Assembly: GCA_027493955.1 (NCBI GenBank)
Contig: JAOSJT010000001.1
Span: forward strand, 1,909,131 to 1,973,130
DNA length: 64,000 bases
Source of the DNA: Bacteroidia bacterium
GTDB taxonomy: Bacteria; Bacteroidota; Ignavibacteria; SZUA-365
Direction: 5' to 3'
Both the position numbers and the translations under genes were made by a program. Numbering within the stretch: position 1 is the stretch's first letter; every line of letters begins with the position of its first letter. The notes under the pieces are model-generated. The model had not been told where the DNA came from, ran no database searches, and saw only the letters and a program-made list of their open reading frames with translations. Positions 1,377 through 49,213 of the stretch are shown here, piece by piece.

Positions 1377-3884
1377 TTATTTCGTGAGAAGTAAACGTCG
1401 TGTTTGCACGCTACTCGCGTTGCGCAGCACGACGTGATACATGCCCGAGGGCAGGCTGCCGGCATCGAAGGTGAGGCTGTACCGTCCTGCGTCGTAGTGC
1501 CCGTTGACAAGCGTTGCAACGGTGCGGCCCAGAACGTCGGTTACAAACAGGGTGATGTCCTGTCGCTCGAACAATGTTACCGCGATACTGGTCTGCGGAT
1601 TGAAGGGGTTCGGGTAGGGCTCGGCCAGGAACATCGTCACGGACCGTACGGCCGGGGTGCCGCCCGCCTCCGTGCGTACCTCGGGCGTTTGCATCAGTCC
1701 ACGGGTACGGCGGTAGCGAAGCAGGTCGCTGGTGTACGATCCGGACGGATCCGCCGCCCGCTTGCCGAACTCGATGCATCCAAGCGAATCGGTCTGAGAT
1801 TCGTCTGCATAATCCAGCGTCGATCCACCGTTCGCGATCAGATTCAGGTTCCAGGCCGTCAGACCATCCCACCAATTTTCACGAAAATAGCCGAACGAGG
1901 AGTTGTTGAGAATCACCTGTATCCCGCTCGACGGTGTAAAAATGCTGTTGACCGCGCCGAGTGTCACCGCTATGCCGCCATTGTTGAGGTACTCCCGGCC
2001 GAAATCCAGATACGAATCACCCGCCGAGCGGATATTCTCGTAATTGTCGAAGATACAGTTCCGTCCTTCGAACATCTTACGAACAACAATACTGTCGACA
2101 TCCACCGGGTTGCTCGCCGGATCCATACTCTGGTCCTCATGATACCAGCCGCGGATGCGGGCGGGATCGGCCTGCGTGCCCGAGGTATAGATACCGCGAT
2201 AGAGATTGCCGAACACGCGCGAGTAGCGCAGTGTGGTCCAATTCGAGCCGCCCTCCACATGGATTCCGATTTTATTGGAATCAATTCGTGTATAGTTGAT
2301 GAATGGACCGACGGTGTTATGGATGAAGTACCCGCAGCTATCGTTGGCGCGCACGGTACAGCTATCGAAATGCGCCTCGTCGCTGTCGACGATTTCAATT
2401 CCATGTCCGCCATAGCTTATTCCGCCCGCCTGAGGAAAGGTAAAGGCCGCCTTGGTGATTCCCGTCCAACTGAACGTCGGGTGGGATTGCGCACCTTCGA
2501 TGAGCACATTGCTGCTGCGCGCGGAGCTCGCGACCCCGCCCGTGTTGCTTATCAATGACACATCCACATCCGGGCTACAGTTGATGATGTGCATGCCATG
2601 ATCGCGCGATGAATCGATCTCCACGACTTCGAGCTTCACGTCGCTGCTCTCTTCAACCTTCATCCCGACAACGGCCGAGCTGATACGCGCGGAGTGCATA
2701 TAGATCGTCGCCCCCGTTTCACCGGCAATTCCCGTCCATGCGCCCTTGTCCGTGTTCTGGTAACAGAACCAGTCTGTTACGCCGTATGGATGGGTATGGG
2801 AAGTGCGGAACGTCCCGCCGTCCCGCACCGTCAGGCCTTTATCCCCAGCGAACATCACCTTTGTCTCCACGACCGTCGGCGCGTTGATGACATCCGGATC
2901 ACTGGTGACGCGCCAGGTGCTGCCGGAAGGGATGACGATATTGTCTTTCACAAGTGCGTGCACATCGAGACGGGCATCGGCCACTCCGTAGGGAATTGCA
3001 TCGCTGTTCGGTGCGCCTCCACTATTGGGGCCGGTGTAATTCGGATCGATGCTGAAGTTATGGCGGTCGCGGACGTAGGACTGCGCATTGGGATCGTTGC
3101 GGACGAGTTGCCAGTATTTCACCGATATACCATCCTGACCAAAGCTCCCGCAATCGATCATGTCAGGATCGTCCGGATCATCACTCGATACCCATATCCT
3201 GACCTCGTCATCGTTGTCGCCGCCTTCGGGATCAACGAGAATATTCCTGAACCCCGTGCCGCCGTCAGCCCATTTCCCGTCGGTCAAATCGAGCTGTATG
3301 GTGAAATCTTCATAATCATGTTCAATCCTGATGTTATACACGCCGGCTCCGAGCAACTCAGTAGTCATTCTCGTCACATCGCCTGAAACGAGCGGCGGTG
3401 TGGAGCTCCACTTCGAGTGGTAGATCCCGAGAATGTCGCTGGAAACCTGGTACCGGCCGAACGCATTCGAGCTCAGCTGGAGGCTATACTCGCGGGTGTG
3501 ATCAAAGACCATTCCGGCAACGCTGACCGTGACATAATAATTGGGGTCGGTTTGCGAAGGTTTGAACGCGAGAGTCGGGCAGGCGTCCCGGGCGACGGGA
3601 GGGTTTGTCAGGCTCGAAGAGCCAAAATCAACAGGCTGTTGTGCTCGCGCCGGCACAATCATCAATGCCATTGTAAGGAAGGCTATTGAGATAATCAATG
3701 CCGCGCAGCGGCGCTTGACGCGCAGCGGCGCTTGACGCGCAGCGGCGCTTGACGCGCAGCGGCGCTTGACGCGCAGCGGCGCTTGACGCGCAGCGGCGCT
3801 TGACGCGCAGCGGCGCTTGACGCGCAGCGGCGCTTGACGCGCAGCGGCTGGCGCCGCTGCGACGGGACGAGTTTCACATTGCAT
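1377..3884 (-). CDS. T9SS-secreted right-handed beta-helix protein with repeat-encoded N-terminus
   Basis: The protein has 835 residues. The start at 3884 is chosen because a perfect AAGGAG (3892-3897) lies seven bases upstream. The first ~65 residues are encoded largely by a 17-bp tandem repeat and give an Arg/Lys-rich n-region (unit RQAPLRVKRRCASSAAA). This runs straight into the hydrophobic core ALIISIAFLTMALMIVPARA and a likely cleavage before QQPVDF. The middle shows parallel beta-helix character, with many short GI/HVEGGSNW, CTVRAND and SRVFGN turns. The last ~80 residues are a type A T9SS sorting domain (PYPNPFNPQTS, LGRTV, LPSGMYHVVL, ending RRLLLTK). It is likely exported and surface-anchored or released; its ligand is unknown. 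The unusually long n-region, and the frame dependence on repeat number, are the odd points. Confidence 0.85.
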   Translation of the reverse strand: MQCETRPVAAAPAAARQAPLRVKRRCASSAAARQAPLRVKRRCASSAAARQAPLRVKRRCAALIISIAFLTMALMIVPARAQQPVDFGSSSLTNPPVARDACPTLAFKPSQTDPNYYVTVSVAGMVFDHTREYSLQLSSNAFGRYQVSSDILGIYHSKWSSTPPLVSGDVTRMTTELLGAGVYNIRIEHDYEDFTIQLDLTDGKWADGGTGFRNILVDPEGGDNDDEVRIWVSSDDPDDPDMIDCGSFGQDGISVKYWQLVRNDPNAQSYVRDRHNFSIDPNYTGPNSGGAPNSDAIPYGVADARLDVHALVKDNIVIPSGSTWRVTSDPDVINAPTVVETKVMFAGDKGLTVRDGGTFRTSHTHPYGVTDWFCYQNTDKGAWTGIAGETGATIYMHSARISSAVVGMKVEESSDVKLEVVEIDSSRDHGMHIINCSPDVDVSLISNTGGVASSARSSNVLIEGAQSHPTFSWTGITKAAFTFPQAGGISYGGHGIEIVDSDEAHFDSCTVRANDSCGYFIHNTVGPFINYTRIDSNKIGIHVEGGSNWTTLRYSRVFGNLYRGIYTSGTQADPARIRGWYHEDQSMDPASNPVDVDSIVVRKMFEGRNCIFDNYENIRSAGDSYLDFGREYLNNGGIAVTLGAVNSIFTPSSGIQVILNNSSFGYFRENWWDGLTAWNLNLIANGGSTLDYADESQTDSLGCIEFGKRAADPSGSYTSDLLRYRRTRGLMQTPEVRTEAGGTPAVRSVTMFLAEPYPNPFNPQTSIAVTLFERQDITLFVTDVLGRTVATLVNGHYDAGRYSLTFDAGSLPSGMYHVVLRNASSVQTRRLLLTK
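3702..3849. repeat. 17-bp tandem repeat inside a coding N-terminus
   Basis: The unit GCGCAGCGGCGCTTGAC recurs every 17 bp, with the CTTGA core at 3714, 3731, 3748, 3765, 3782, 3799, 3816 and 3833. That makes eight full copies followed by a partial one. All three minus-strand frames of the unit are free of stops and read the same 17-residue cycle. Because 17 is not a multiple of three, gain or loss of one copy shifts the downstream frame. Confidence 0.95.
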
Positions 3885-3891
3885 AACGCAT

Positions 3892-3897
3892 CTCCTT
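3892..3897 (-). promoter_or_regulatory. Shine-Dalgarno deciding the start of the beta-helix T9SS gene
   Basis: On the minus strand AAGGAG is followed by seven bases and then ATG at 3884. It places initiation upstream of the 17-bp repeat array, so translation has to cross the repeats in frame to reach the signal peptide. Confidence 0.75.
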
Positions 3898-5106
3898 GTG
3901 GATAAGTGAAGGGACTGTGCCGTTAATCGACGCACTATGACAAGACCATTTGGGACCTTGCTCTATAGGGAGGGGAGATTGCGTTATGAAGGCTGTAAAT
4001 ACTTTCTGCGTTTGTGAAAAGAAGCGCACCGCGGCGTACCGATCTCGCATGTGCGGGAAGGTCCCGCTTGCGGGCTTCGGAGCTGATGCCCCATGCAGGC
4101 GATTGCGGATCCCTGATTGTCGAACGCTGTCCGGCGTCCCTTTGCCGGTTGGGGTGGTTGCTGGCGAGAGCACTACCACATCATATTGCATCCAATGCCC
4201 TCGCGAGCGTAAAACACATGCGCGAGATGCTGCCGCTTCATCGCAGCAAATCCGGCTCATGTCAATGACTCGATAGAAGGTGCTGTTTACGCTCATGCCC
4301 ACGTCTCAGGCGAGATTGGAAACATTGGATGGAGCATATTTAGTGAATTGCTTTTTCAGATGCAAGCAAAATCGAACGGAGCTGTACGAATTTTTTCCCG
4401 TCGCGCCCCTCCATCCCGCATTTCGGGCCTGCTGGTGCGGATAGCGTACGCAAATTCATTTTTTGTCAGGTTGAGCGGAGGAGGACAGCGGAGCGACGTT
4501 GCCTCGGGGACGTTGGGGGGGACGGTATTTATTTTCCCTCCGCCGGTTAATGGCATCTTGGAGACAGTACCTGCTTTCTACGTGCGTAACGGAAAAAATC
4601 ATGCTTTTCCGTAGTAGCGGATCCGCTCTGCTGACAACAGATTGTCGACGCTGAGTCCGCCAAAGCTCGTCAACCTGAGTGTGCCCACCAGTCCGCCTCA
4701 GGCGGATACACTGGTCCAATTCGTGGTTGACATCAGCTTTTTCGCTCATTCACAAGTACCGTCACCCTGAGCGTAGCACCCGCGGCAAAATCTTGGTTTG
4801 AGGTACTCTCGTTTACAGGTGAGGAGTCGAAGGGCCTGCGTCCGGTTTCTACGACTTTCGCAAGCTCCGACTCCAAGATGTCATTAACAGGAGGCACGAC
4901 AAGAAAATCTGCAGGTGAAGTGAAATAGTCAGCAGAGTGCCGTCTCGAAGGTCGAAGACTCGCCGCGGCGGGGTGATTGGTTTCGCTCCAGCAAGCGGTT
5001 TGTAAGTCCGCTCGAGTCTACGAGTACGATGCGCAAGAAATCACCCTTCGAGACGCAGCCGCACACGATCAGTTCTTCGATCTGAAATCATCTTGCGGCT
5101 GCTCCT

Positions 5107-5544
5107 GTTAATGACATCTTGGAGACTGTGCGGACTTACTTGACTCGCGGATTCCGGACGCAGGCCCTTCGACTCCACGACCGTGAAAGTCTGTACCTCA
5201 GACTCAATCCGTACAGCGGTCGTTTCGCTCAGGGTGACGGGGTTTGTTGGCACTGCTGATACGACTCAGATGTCATCTCAGAAATGGGCCAGTGTATCCG
5301 CCTGAGGCGGACTGGTGGGCACACTGTTAATGACATCTTGGAGACTGTGCGGACTTACTTGACTCGCGGATTCCGGACGCAGGCCCTTCGACTCCACGAC
5401 CGTGAAAGTCTGTACCTCAGACTCAATCCGTACAGCGGTCGTTTCGCTCAGGGTGACGGGGTTTGTTGGCACTGCTGATACGACTCAGATGTCATCTCAG
5501 ACATGGGCCAGTGCATCCGCCTGAGGCGGACTGGTGGGCACACT
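5107..5544. repeat. Two tandem 219-bp direct repeats
   Basis: Copy 1 spans 5107-5325 and copy 2 spans 5326-5544. They are almost identical; the only differences seen are near the end (GAAATGGGCCAGTGTATCC against GACATGGGCCAGTGCATCC). Each starts GTTAATGACATCTTGGAGAC and ends with the palindrome TCCGCCTGAGGCGGA and then CTGGTGGGCACACT. The near-identity indicates a recent duplication. No coding potential was seen. Confidence 0.95.
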
Positions 5545-5716: not shown

Positions 5717-5800
5717 GCAACGTCTCTTCGCATGCAACGTCTCTTCGCATGCAACGTCTCTTCGCATGCAACGTCTCTACAAAGGCAACGTCTCTACAAT
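5717..5800. repeat. 17-bp minisatellite, about five units
   Basis: GCAACGTCTCTTCGCAT repeats at 5717, 5734 and 5751. Two diverged units with CTCTACAA follow from 5768 and 5785. It lies 3' of the M28 peptidase stop at 5857 and is non-coding. Confidence 0.85.
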
Positions 5801-31492: not shown

Positions 31493-31685
<193 letters not shown>

Positions 31686-31712
<27 letters not shown>

Positions 31713-39282: not shown

Positions 39283-39816
39283 AGCAGAGAGCACGGCCGT
39301 GCGGGGGCGCTCGCACGGTACAAGTGCCTCGGTTCGGGAGGAGGCAGAGAGCGAAGAGCGGAGAGCACGGTCGTGCTGGGGGCGCGGCGCAAAGAGCAGA
39401 GAGCAGAGAGCAGAGAGCAGAGAGCACGGTCGTGCGTTACGGATGTCCGCACAAAGAACTATAACCGCTGCCTGGCTCTTGTGTGTATCCGACGCCACCC
39501 GCCTCCCAAACAAAGGCACTTGTGCAATTCGAGCGATCTTGCACGGCCGTGCTCTCTGCTCTCTGCTCTCTGCTCTCGGCTCTCTGCTCTCGGCTCTCTG
39601 CTCTCGGCTCTCTGCTCTCGGCTCTCTGCTCTCGGCTCTCTGCTCTCGGCTCTCTGCTCTCTGCTCTCTGTTCTCGGCTCTCTGCTCTCGGCCGCACCAC
39701 CGCCCGTACAGACGCCCGACCGGGCGTCTCTACCGCACCACCACCGCCCGTGTTGCCTGGGCCCCCGCACCGATCATGCGAATGAAATACATCCCGGGCC
39801 GCAAACGCAATGCCGA
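39283..39816. repeat. Heptad-armed duplicated element, copy A
   Basis: The left part has purine heptads (GAGAGCA type) punctuated by the palindrome GCACGG(C/T)CGTGC near 39290, 39365 and 39424. A ~105-bp central spacer (39436-39540) follows, then GCACGGCCGTGC and pyrimidine heptads (GCTCTCT/GCTCTCG, 39551-39690), so the arms can pair. The right end includes the last ~30 codons of the T9SS gene that stops at 39730. Copy B lies at 48714-49213 in the same orientation with near-identical spacer and end; only the heptad numbers differ clearly. Confidence 0.93.
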
Positions 39817-44752: not shown

Positions 44753-47700
44753 TTAACGTAGGACGATAAAGGAAGTTAGAGTGCGACCGCCCGCGGTGAT
44801 CGCGCTCACGAAATACGTGCCGGAAGGTAGCTGTCCGCGCGGCAGACCGGCGGCTATCGACGTCAAACCTTCGCGCAAGACTCCGTCATGCAACTGGGCC
44901 ACGGTGCGCCCGAGGGCATTCGTGATAAAGACTCGCGTATACTGTTCACGTTCGCTCGAGAGAAGAACGGTAATAGCACCGTCGGTGCCCACCGGATTCG
45001 GGTACACTGATGCGGTGAGGTTCAGTGGCGATGCTTTCTCGCTCCGCTTCTTCCAACCGATGTTATCGTCGTCGATACGATACATGCGCGTACCCATGGG
45101 GCTGGCGGTGCCGCCCCAGGTGTCGAGCCAGAAGGTCGAGAATGTACCATCGTCGGAAGGTTGGATGGTCGGACGGAGTTGATGGTACATTCCCGGACCC
45201 GGCGCGACCATCATTTCCTGTGTCCAATACAACCCGCGATCGACATTAACCTCGTATCCCGCCAGTTGACTGTAGATTTCAGTCGGGCGGGGAGGAGAGC
45301 AGCTTGAGGTTTCTCCACCTCCCTGCCAGACAACCATGCCCAACGGTTCCTGTCCCGGTATGGGATACTCCATCCTTGCGATGTCGGGCCAGGTTTTTTC
45401 CGTAAGGTCCATGCTCAGTACGAGCGGTCCACCCTGCGGAACCGAGTGGGTATTCGAATAGAAGTAGACATGCTCGGACAGCACGCGATTGCGCAATTGC
45501 GACATTCCATTGACATACTCCTGATTCCAGGCGATGAGCATACCGCCTACATTCCCGCGGTCATAGTTGTCCGAAACGATGCTGGGTTGCGAAGCGGTGG
45601 CTATACCACCATCCGGCCAGGGGATACCGATAAAACGCGTGCCGGCGTTCGCCTGTGAACCATCGTAGGATGAGATGATCAATTCCGGGTCCAGGCTGGG
45701 CAAGGCCATCGCGTAGACCAGTATCGGTCTGTGCGGAACCGGCCAGGCAAGGTCCACGTCTATGTCGTAACCGTTGAACTCGGTGTATTGTAAACCCTCA
45801 TCCTGGTATGCGACGAAATATGGGTAAACATTGTCCTCCACCATCGAAGTGACATTAATGTACTTGGTGGGTGGAACTGTCGTACTTTCTGTTCGCGAAA
45901 GGATGTGAACTCCACCGTCACCATCCGAAACTATTTTAATTTCGAAGTACTCCGGTATTGTACCGCCCATCGGGATCGGGGGAGGGGACGCAACCGGAGC
46001 GAAGGAAACGACATCCATCCGATACAACACTCGTTCGCGCGCCGCTCCAGTCTGATTGATCGCGACGATTATAGCTCCCTCATCCCACGAGTTCTGTATC
46101 GAGGGAGGAGTGAAAACAATGCTCGGTTCAATCATACCCAGACTGGTCGCTGGTGGGGTGAGGGTAAGCCTGCTCACCACACCATCGTAGCGTATGTGTC
46201 CATAGACTACTTCCTCGATGCTTCCGGCGAGATTGTACTGCTGCCAGGCCACCTGAGCGCCGCGGCTTCCGTCAATCGAAACATCCGCGTGTCTGGCGTT
46301 ATCCGTGACGCTCGGGTCGCTCACGAGGACTCCGCCAAGATCCCACCTCGGCACGCCGTGCTTGTCGAATTTCTGTATGTACACCTGACGTCCTTGGTTG
46401 GGATATCGGATTTCATCCCAAACCACAAAGACGTTGTGTTCTTCGTCGGTGGCCATGCGGTAACTCTGTGCGTCGCTGATGTTCGTGACCTTGGCCCACA
46501 TATCGCGCCAGCGCATGGCCGCGGGACCAACACATTCGCCGGAAAGTTGACAGTGGATATCCCAGTCGTTGCGATTGTCGTTTACTATAGGCTGTCTGCG
46601 GCGGTCCTGGAACACCATCACCTCGCCGCTGACTTCCGGCAGGACTTGGTCGCCCTTGGCCTCCGTCACCGGCCAGCCGTTGTACGGGCGCTGAAAACTC
46701 CACGATGGTATCGTCGCTTTTTGGTGATGAATATCCGCATTCGCATACCCACCCTGATACTGGCCGGGCGTGCGCCAGGCGATGTTCACCTCGTCGCCGC
46801 CGTTGATATGATCGAGCGCGTGCTCGGTCTGATCGCCGCCGAGAGCGCACACAAGCTCGCCCGCGGAGCCGGAGGGATTGGCCAGAGTGATGAATCGGGT
46901 ATCGAACGTGCCCCCATACAGATCGATGCCGCTGGTCTGCGCATCGCGCAAATCCTGCCACACCACGCTCACGTAGGGGATGTACGGATCGCCGTAGTTG
47001 GGTGAATGCTGTGGATTTTCATAGATAACCGGGATGGGGAGGATTTGCGAATCCCCCATGTCGCAGATCACCTCGCCGGTACCCGGATTGCTCACCGTGC
47101 CGCTGGCGTAGATCACCTGGGCCATGATATCGTAGAGCGGCGCATTCGGATCCTGCCGTGCATCCTGCCATACCACGATTGCGCGCGGCTGATCGGCTGT
47201 TGCCTCGGCTCCGCCGCAGACGATGCGGGGATGCAGCTGATCGGCGTCTATCGCGGCCATGGGAATGTCGTTGCCGCCGTACTGTCGGACTCCGTCCGCG
47301 TCGATGTTCGTGGCCATCACATTCCAGTAATCGACGCCGTTGCCGTGGCGCGTCTGGTCCTGATACGCTATCACGCAGCCGGCTTTGACCACCTGATTCG
47401 CGTCGAGTTTGAAAATGTAATCGCGGGCGATTTCGGGATACTCCTGATCGTTTCCCGGACTTGCCGATACCGGTATACCGTTCTGCACCCAGTTGACGCC
47501 CTGCGGCCAATTGCCGGTGGCGCTGAGAATGTACTGCGCGTACACCAGCCGTCCGCCGGAACCCGCCGTTGCGGAGCGGTGATCAAGCCAGGTAATGTAC
47601 GCCCCGTCGCTGTTACCCGCGATGCGCACATGCTCCACGTTGCCATCGAGATCGCGCACGGGCATACCGTCCGCCAGCCAGTTCGGGTCCAGCGCGCCGG

Positions 47701-48106
47701 TGGTCGCATCGAGCCGCTGCGCATAGATGGAGGTGTAGTAGCCGTTTCTGGCGTCCAGCCAGGTAACGATCACGCCGCCGAGCGAATCATACGCCGCCCG
47801 GGGTTCGATCTGCGCTTCCGCGGCGCCGCATACGAGAACGCCCTCCGGAGGCAGCCACTGCGGCAGGCCGGTGAAGTTGTCGATCTTCTGACAATAGATG
47901 TCGAAATCCGATCCCTGACCTCTGTCGTCCTGCCAGAAAACGATGGTGTAGTCGGCTTGCGACGGCCGGGCGACGGTGGGATTGATCTGATCGCCGATGG
48001 CGCCGCAGGTGAGCGGATCCTTCCACTCCACTTGAGCAATTGCGCTATGATCCGGGATGATCGCCATCAGGCAGAGGAGGAAGGCGACACCGCAGAGGCA
48101 TCGCAC
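44753..48106 (-). CDS. Giant T9SS-secreted protein with repeated DxR blocks, apparently phase-variable
   Basis: The protein has 1117 residues from the GTG at 48106, which lacks a ribosome site. A better start (ATG 48200 with GAGGAG seven bases upstream) lies beyond a CAGTA repeat and is out of frame in this sequence. The signal peptide is CLCGVAFLLCLMAIIPDHSAIA. The body repeats a ~50-residue block with IVFWQDDRGQGSDFDIYCQ, VIVTWLDARNGYYTSIYAQ and AIVVWQDARQDPNAPLYDI, probably a propeller of blades rich in W.D.R motifs. The T9SS tail (SVYPNPVGTDGAITVLL, NALGRTVAQL, LPSGTYFVSAI) closes it. No catalytic site was seen; a binding or matrix role is likely. Confidence 0.85.
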   Translation of the reverse strand: MRCLCGVAFLLCLMAIIPDHSAIAQVEWKDPLTCGAIGDQINPTVARPSQADYTIVFWQDDRGQGSDFDIYCQKIDNFTGLPQWLPPEGVLVCGAAEAQIEPRAAYDSLGGVIVTWLDARNGYYTSIYAQRLDATTGALDPNWLADGMPVRDLDGNVEHVRIAGNSDGAYITWLDHRSATAGSGGRLVYAQYILSATGNWPQGVNWVQNGIPVSASPGNDQEYPEIARDYIFKLDANQVVKAGCVIAYQDQTRHGNGVDYWNVMATNIDADGVRQYGGNDIPMAAIDADQLHPRIVCGGAEATADQPRAIVVWQDARQDPNAPLYDIMAQVIYASGTVSNPGTGEVICDMGDSQILPIPVIYENPQHSPNYGDPYIPYVSVVWQDLRDAQTSGIDLYGGTFDTRFITLANPSGSAGELVCALGGDQTEHALDHINGGDEVNIAWRTPGQYQGGYANADIHHQKATIPSWSFQRPYNGWPVTEAKGDQVLPEVSGEVMVFQDRRRQPIVNDNRNDWDIHCQLSGECVGPAAMRWRDMWAKVTNISDAQSYRMATDEEHNVFVVWDEIRYPNQGRQVYIQKFDKHGVPRWDLGGVLVSDPSVTDNARHADVSIDGSRGAQVAWQQYNLAGSIEEVVYGHIRYDGVVSRLTLTPPATSLGMIEPSIVFTPPSIQNSWDEGAIIVAINQTGAARERVLYRMDVVSFAPVASPPPIPMGGTIPEYFEIKIVSDGDGGVHILSRTESTTVPPTKYINVTSMVEDNVYPYFVAYQDEGLQYTEFNGYDIDVDLAWPVPHRPILVYAMALPSLDPELIISSYDGSQANAGTRFIGIPWPDGGIATASQPSIVSDNYDRGNVGGMLIAWNQEYVNGMSQLRNRVLSEHVYFYSNTHSVPQGGPLVLSMDLTEKTWPDIARMEYPIPGQEPLGMVVWQGGGETSSCSPPRPTEIYSQLAGYEVNVDRGLYWTQEMMVAPGPGMYHQLRPTIQPSDDGTFSTFWLDTWGGTASPMGTRMYRIDDDNIGWKKRSEKASPLNLTASVYPNPVGTDGAITVLLSSEREQYTRVFITNALGRTVAQLHDGVLREGLTSIAAGLPRGQLPSGTYFVSAITAGGRTLTSFIVLR

Positions 48107-48135
48107 GATAAAATCAGTACAGCGGACAGCAAAGG

Positions 48136-48180
48136 CACTGTACTGTACTGTACTGTACTGTACTGTACTGTACTGTACTG
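48136..48180. repeat. Pentanucleotide repeat TACTG x8 in the leader of a T9SS gene
   Basis: On the plus strand CACTG (48136-48140) is followed by eight perfect TACTG units (48141-48180). Read on the minus strand these are CAGTA x8 and lie between a good ATG (48200) and the signal peptide. With eight copies the ATG frame meets a TGA soon after the repeats. Nine or six copies would join it to the 1117-residue frame. Confidence 0.95.
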
Positions 48181-48197
48181 CTGGAAGGTTTTCGGTT

Positions 48198-48213
48198 CAT
48201 CAAGGTACTCCTC
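48198..48213 (-). promoter_or_regulatory. Ribosome binding site and candidate alternate start upstream of the pentanucleotide repeat
   Basis: GAGGAG (48208-48213) is spaced seven bases from ATG (48198-48200) on the minus strand. The first residues would be MNRKPSSSTVQYS, a basic n-region suited to a signal peptide. This is a better initiation site than the GTG at 48106. Confidence 0.7.
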
Positions 48214-48713: not shown

Positions 48714-49213
48714 GAGCGGAGAGCACGGCCGTGTGGGGGCGCTCGCACCGTACAAGTGCCTCAGTTCGGGAGGAGGCAGAGAGCGAAGAGCGGAGAGCAC
48801 GGTCGTGCTGGGGGCGCGGCGCAAAGAGCAGAGAGCAGAGAGCAGAGAGCACGGTCGTGCGTTACGGATGTCCGCACAAAGAACTATAACCGCTGCCTGG
48901 CTCTTGTGTGTATCCGACGCCACCCGCCTCCCAAACAAAGGCACTTGTGCAATTCGAGCGATCTTGCACGGCCGTGCTCTCTGCTCTCAGCTCTCTGCTC
49001 TTTGCTCTCTGCTCTCGGCTCTCGGCTCTCTGCTCTCGGCTCTCTGCTCTCTGCTCTCTGCTCTCTGTTCTCGGCTCTCTGCTCTCGGCCGCACCACCGC
49101 CCGTACAGACGTCCGGCCGGGCGTCTCTACCGCACCACCACCGCGCGCGTTGCCAGGGCCCCCGCACCGATCATGCGAATGAAATACATTCCCGCCCGCA
49201 GCTGCAATGCCGA
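48714..49213. repeat. Heptad-armed duplicated element, copy B
   Basis: This is the direct copy of 39283-39816. The central spacer (GTTACGGATGTCCGCACAAA and onward) and the right end are near identical. The pyrimidine array (48976-49088) is shorter and differs in a few heptads. The copy carries with it the end of a T9SS sorting domain but no gene body. Confidence 0.93.

Follow-up and report, generated by a model that had tools for sequence, protein, structure and literature searches.

A frame-shifting 17-bp tandem array ahead of the signal peptide in a T9SS cargo gene as a probable translational phase-variation locus

We analyzed a stretch of 64,000 nucleotides (the window) containing a gene for an 835-aa T9SS cargo protein, in which a perfect 17-bp tandem array separates the start codon from the putative signal peptide. 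From its sequence and context, we propose, with a probability of about three in four, that this array is a translational phase-variation (contingency) locus. Through slipped-strand mispairing or unequal recombination, the array would gain or lose one or more units, changing its unit number (n). The ribosome would begin at the strong Shine-Dalgarno (SD) sequence and ATG upstream, and the translated array would form an N-terminal extension of the protein. Only with n = 2 mod 3 would the ribosome reach the frame of the signal peptide and produce a secreted T9SS beta-helix protein, and with any other n translation would end shortly past the array. We infer a variable unit number in the population, initiation at the ATG at 3882-3884, and selection for, or a benefit from, switching of the locus. 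The features of the gene are as follows.

3892..3897, minus strand: AAGGAG Shine-Dalgarno sequence, with a 7-nt spacer to the ATG
3882..3884, minus strand: ATG start codon of the 835-aa ORF, from ORF reconstruction
3705..3840, minus strand: eight perfect 17-bp units GCGTCAAGCGCCGCTGC (TRF extent 3702-3848)
3642..3698, minus strand: putative signal-peptide hydrophobic core and cleavage region, LIISIAFLTMALMIVPARA followed directly by QQ, from hydropathy and an A-X-A motif
1377..3884, minus strand: T9SS cargo gene, 835 aa, with the stop ending at 1377
1389..1616, minus strand: Por_Secre_tail C-terminal sorting domain (PF18962, TIGR04183), from a profile match
Residues 396-571 of the 835-aa protein: right-handed beta-helix
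Residues 757-832 of the 835-aa protein: type A sorting domain, from a domain match

Analysis of the window with TRF gave a period of 17, 8.6 copies, 100% matches and a score of 294 at 3702-3848. On the minus strand, the AAGGAG (3897-3892) and the ATG (3884-3882) are followed by the eight exact units, GCGGCATTGATTATC and the signal-peptide-like segment, and the description in an earlier note on this DNA, of an AAGGAG seven nucleotides from an ATG upstream of eight 17-bp units, was therefore correct. A run of eight perfect 17-mers is far beyond chance. Elsewhere in the 5.24-Mb genome the unit was found as one single copy with one mismatch and nothing more, ruling out a dispersed genome repeat and leaving the unit unique to this T9SS cargo locus. 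A DNA hairpin was also rejected as a driver of instability, as the array did not fold better than shuffled sequences (z = 0.35). The units had been described as open in all frames, and this holds for the gene strand, which is stop-free, but not for the opposite strand of the unit, which has a stop. The openness of the gene strand is itself uninformative, because 79% of shuffled 17-bp units are equally stop-free.

At the protein level the array has a period of 17 residues, SSAAARQAPLRVKRRCA, and its last copy provides the basic n-region (RVKRRC) of the putative signal peptide. The hydrophobic core and A-X-A motif, as read from hydropathy and motif, sit behind an extension of 62 residues. A repeat-encoded extension of 58 residues ahead of a signal peptide is unusual, and counts against reading the array as a switch. 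At the other end of the protein, the sorting domain scored 30.4 bits in Pfam, above a cut-off of 27, and 30.2 bits in NCBIfam, above one of 23, which confirms the earlier assignment of the gene as T9SS cargo. More than 140 Por_Secre_tail matches above cut-off were present in the genome, implying that it probably encodes the T9SS machinery (PorV, SprA and others).

We then rebuilt the reading frame for n = 0-13. The full 835-aa protein was obtained only at n = 2, 5, 8 and 11, and every remaining unit number in this range led to a stop codon after 17-113 codons. Since 17 = -1 mod 3, the frame is shifted at two of every three unit numbers, and as the assembly has n = 8, the gene is ON at present. 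The reconstruction thus agrees with what the earlier note had read from the repeat, namely that each unit gained or lost shifts the frame, that the gene is currently ON, and that out-of-frame readings end soon after the repeats. Termination occurs 24 codons past the array when n = 1 mod 3, and at a TGA immediately behind the array (after ...AARH) when n = 0 mod 3. This TGA lies in the sequence CATTGA and shares bases with a TTG that is in frame with the signal peptide; because of this overlap, we hypothesize that the n = 0 mod 3 OFF state could leak by coupled restart at the TTG.

A different reading of the same region puts the start of translation behind the array, for example at this TTG, with the number of units tuning expression through coupling or RNA structure and not turning it ON and OFF. 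Initiation at the in-frame TTG right behind the array would yield a short hydrophobic signal peptide, a start caller based on coding score places the start past the array, and the RNA of the region is more stably folded than shuffled sequences (z = -3.5). However, neither the TTG nor the next ATG has a Shine-Dalgarno sequence, whereas the upstream ATG has a strong AAGGAG; a protein started at the TTG would lack the basic n-region, and the sibling loci described below share the upstream SD-ATG layout. We therefore consider a downstream start very unlikely. It is hardly credible that the unit number was collapsed or expanded in assembly and that the ON frame is accidental, for although the 147-bp array is close to the length of a short read, the genome is a single contig with 100% completeness, and the array is present whatever its exact number of units, its sensitivity to frame being independent of the exact count.

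Three further cargo genes in the genome carry frame-shifting tracts in or ahead of the signal peptide.

48208..48213, minus strand: GAGGAG Shine-Dalgarno sequence of the CAGTA locus
48137..48180, minus strand: (CAGTA)8CAGT tract, between the ATG (48198-48200) and the signal peptide
44753..48136, minus strand: intact T9SS cargo frame of 1127 codons behind the CAGTA tract (TIGR04183 27.7 bits, cut-off 23)
G000:C1:1072943-1076353 (L161:12943-16353): (CCAC)10 T9SS cargo gene, 1136 aa, ON
G000:C1:1473659-1477142 (L181): T9SS M6-protease gene, 1160 codons, with a G11 tract at 1473695 in the signal peptide

The (CAGTA)8CAGT tract lies 20 nt past the ATG at 48200 and at its present length gives a 28-aa product. 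The frame requires 6, 9 or 12 units and the tract has 8, indicating that this gene is OFF now; the start of the gene (44753-48200, minus strand) would escape standard annotation. The (CCAC)10 tract, at genome position 1072954, lies 11 nt behind its ATG, and since the gene is ON at 7, 10 or 13 units, it is ON now. The M6-protease gene is OFF with G11 and would be ON with G10, and the G11 tract could be a homopolymer sequencing error. TIGR04183 scored over its cut-off in each of the CCAC, CAGTA and G11 genes. The genome therefore holds frame-shift tracts on T9SS cargo genes in a mixture of states, with the 17-mer and CCAC genes ON and the CAGTA and G11 genes OFF. Downstream frames of more than 1100 codons are intact in the two OFF siblings, as expected of switches and not of pseudogenes. 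Taken together, these loci suggest a set of at least four switches of this kind among the T9SS cargo genes of the genome. The earlier note's proposal of a contingency locus thus gains from siblings of the same layout, both ON and OFF, in this genome and in one relative, while the variation in copy number is still presumed.

In order to place these loci in their genomic context, we surveyed genome positions 1-2,840,000 (2.84 Mb, 54% of the single-contig 5.24-Mb genome), a joined sequence that is identical to the 64-kb window where the two overlap. Tandem arrays in the surveyed sequence were mostly intergenic, and frame-shifting arrays within genes were otherwise rare. Only three perfect 4-bp or 5-bp tracts were found. 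Those with at least five units were the CCAC and CAGTA tracts alone, each placed between SD-ATG and signal peptide in a T9SS cargo gene. The remaining one, (GACG)4, was internal. G/C runs of at least 11 were seen twice, against 0.2 expected. In a placement test that was partly post hoc and used a generous set of 188 cargo genes with a 5' zone of 250 nt, the presence of two of the three perfect 4-5-bp tracts in this zone had a P of about 8e-4, and that of three of 25 hypermutable tracts, with the 17-bp array left out, a P of about 0.008.

A systematic scan for an SD-preceded start, a frame-shifting array and a long ORF returned ten loci, among which the only perfect arrays were the 17-mer, CCAC and CAGTA. 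The other seven were imperfect arrays of 7-, 8- or 14-bp units, and were left uncounted as switches, being heptamer and similar arrays that are mostly intergenic; at least one of them, at 1563118, leads into a long frame that contains a segment resembling a signal peptide. Further 17-bp arrays in the genome were intergenic or within a doubtful ORF. A perfect (CAGCC)7 tract (G000:C1:4724189-4724225) was set aside, with no sorting domain found nearby among the 150 of 347 candidates scored.

Other repeats were recorded in the course of this work. Runs of ten G/C at G000:C1:1312301-1312310, inside a histidine-kinase-like gene, and at G000:C1:2071960-2071969, upstream of an acyltransferase-like gene, are possible further switch candidates. 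A T9SS cargo gene at G000:C1:2691415-2691463 has its likely start codon and the start of its signal peptide within an ATTATCC-type repeat. Perfect heptamer tracts numbered 73 in the surveyed 2.84 Mb. Within the window, tandem repeats of 7-bp or 17-bp units are abundant between genes, at 5717-5795, 31600-31710, 39389-39692 and 48975-49086. Upstream of the gene with the 17-bp array, an intergenic region of 2 kb contains two 219-bp tandem copies, 99% identical, at 5105-5544.

We also looked for the gene and its siblings in related genomes. The genus of the source bacterium comprises one genome only, and the nearest named records to its RpoB were Bacteroidetes and Ignavibacteria MAGs at 70-71% identity. 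Among 61 relatives, no full-length orthologue of the 835-aa protein was found, matches being confined to the C-terminal domain. The search for orthologues with other unit numbers in the same 61 relatives was likewise negative, and 79 named loci matched the C-terminal domain or the C-terminal end. The M6-protease gene could be followed further. Its orthologue in G002 (50% identical) has GGGAGGGGGG at the corresponding site of the signal peptide, and a homologue in G005, a relative of the same family (29% identical), has an SD-ATG, AAATTAAT and (AAGC)6, followed by the signal peptide.

L258 (G005:C164), from 1389, reverse strand: (AAGC)6 M6-protease homologue

This gene is OFF at the six units present in the MAG, and would be ON at five or eight. 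A comparison of the G11 gene with its G002 and G005 homologues thus indicates that different tracts occur at homologous positions of cargo genes within one family. A control scan for simple sequence repeats, covering 758 kb in cargo-bearing loci of relatives and of other phyla, revealed no tract of 4-5-bp units ahead of a long ORF. A (GCTT)7 tract in the relative G010 was rejected as a cargo switch, as the same contig has no detectable Por_Secre_tail.

These results bear on an alternative that would need no switching role, in which the array is a neutral minisatellite, expanded by chance in the tolerant N-terminus of a dispensable secreted protein, and stays in frame because lengths that break the frame are removed by purifying selection. 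The genome carries many, mostly intergenic, tandem arrays, so that one could be at this site by chance; the 835-aa gene, without full-length orthologues, may be dispensable, and a stop-free unit is common by chance. However, four different repeat types occur independently at the same position of T9SS cargo genes, two of the four tract genes are OFF and yet have intact frames, and arrays that shift the frame are rare within genes otherwise. We therefore regard neutral expansion as unlikely, and favor a phase-variation locus.

On a broader scale, it is an evenly balanced possibility that this Bacteroidota-lineage bacterium (of an uncultured type and probably environmental) and its family have a combinatorial T9SS secretome, in which unrelated cargos would have independently gained 17-mer, CCAC, CAGTA, poly-G or AAGC tracts between the start codon and the signal peptide, giving each cell its own ON/OFF mosaic. 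The overlap of the n = 0 mod 3 stop with an in-frame TTG, as a site of restart, may give the 17-bp locus a third state.

ON/OFF switching driven by slippage is known mainly in host-adapted pathogens. A full-text search of open-licence literature, judged mostly by title and abstract, returned no report of phase-variable T9SS cargo. The mechanism is already known, and the novelty, which we rate as moderate, lies in the unusual 17-bp unit, the T9SS class of cargo, and a lineage for which we found no earlier report. Should switching be confirmed, T9SS secretomes would vary stochastically in this lineage. In single assemblies, OFF cargos would then be mis-annotated as truncated genes or genes without a start, and a frame-shifting unit of 17 bp would widen the known range of units in translational switches.

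The layout described here resembles that of the autA/autB autotransporter genes of Neisseria and Haemophilus, in which AAGC repeats follow the start codon (immediately so in autB), ahead of or inside the signal sequence of a large secreted protein, and turn this protein ON or OFF by frame shift, with many loci OFF and yet intact (PMC5118866). The M6-protease homologue in G005 even carries the AAGC unit. Differences lie in the 17-bp unit, in export by T9SS in place of autotransport, and in the phylum; moreover, switching is proven for autA/autB and inferred from sequence here. The opa genes of Neisseria, likewise proven to be phase-variable and with pentanucleotide (CTCTT) repeats in the region of the signal sequence, similarly provide surface proteins from multiple loci, every locus having a tract and an ON/OFF state of its own, and recall the G11 and CAGTA siblings (PMC13183285). 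Unlike opa, which is one gene family with one unit, the cargos here are unrelated, as are their units (17-mer, CCAC, CAGTA and G). Long units are shared with tandem repeats in promoters of M. tuberculosis, where high variation in copy number has been measured, at 1e-2 to 1e-3 per chromosome (PMC12817950). The M. tuberculosis repeats, however, tune transcription, whereas the 17-bp array is coding and shifts the reading frame.
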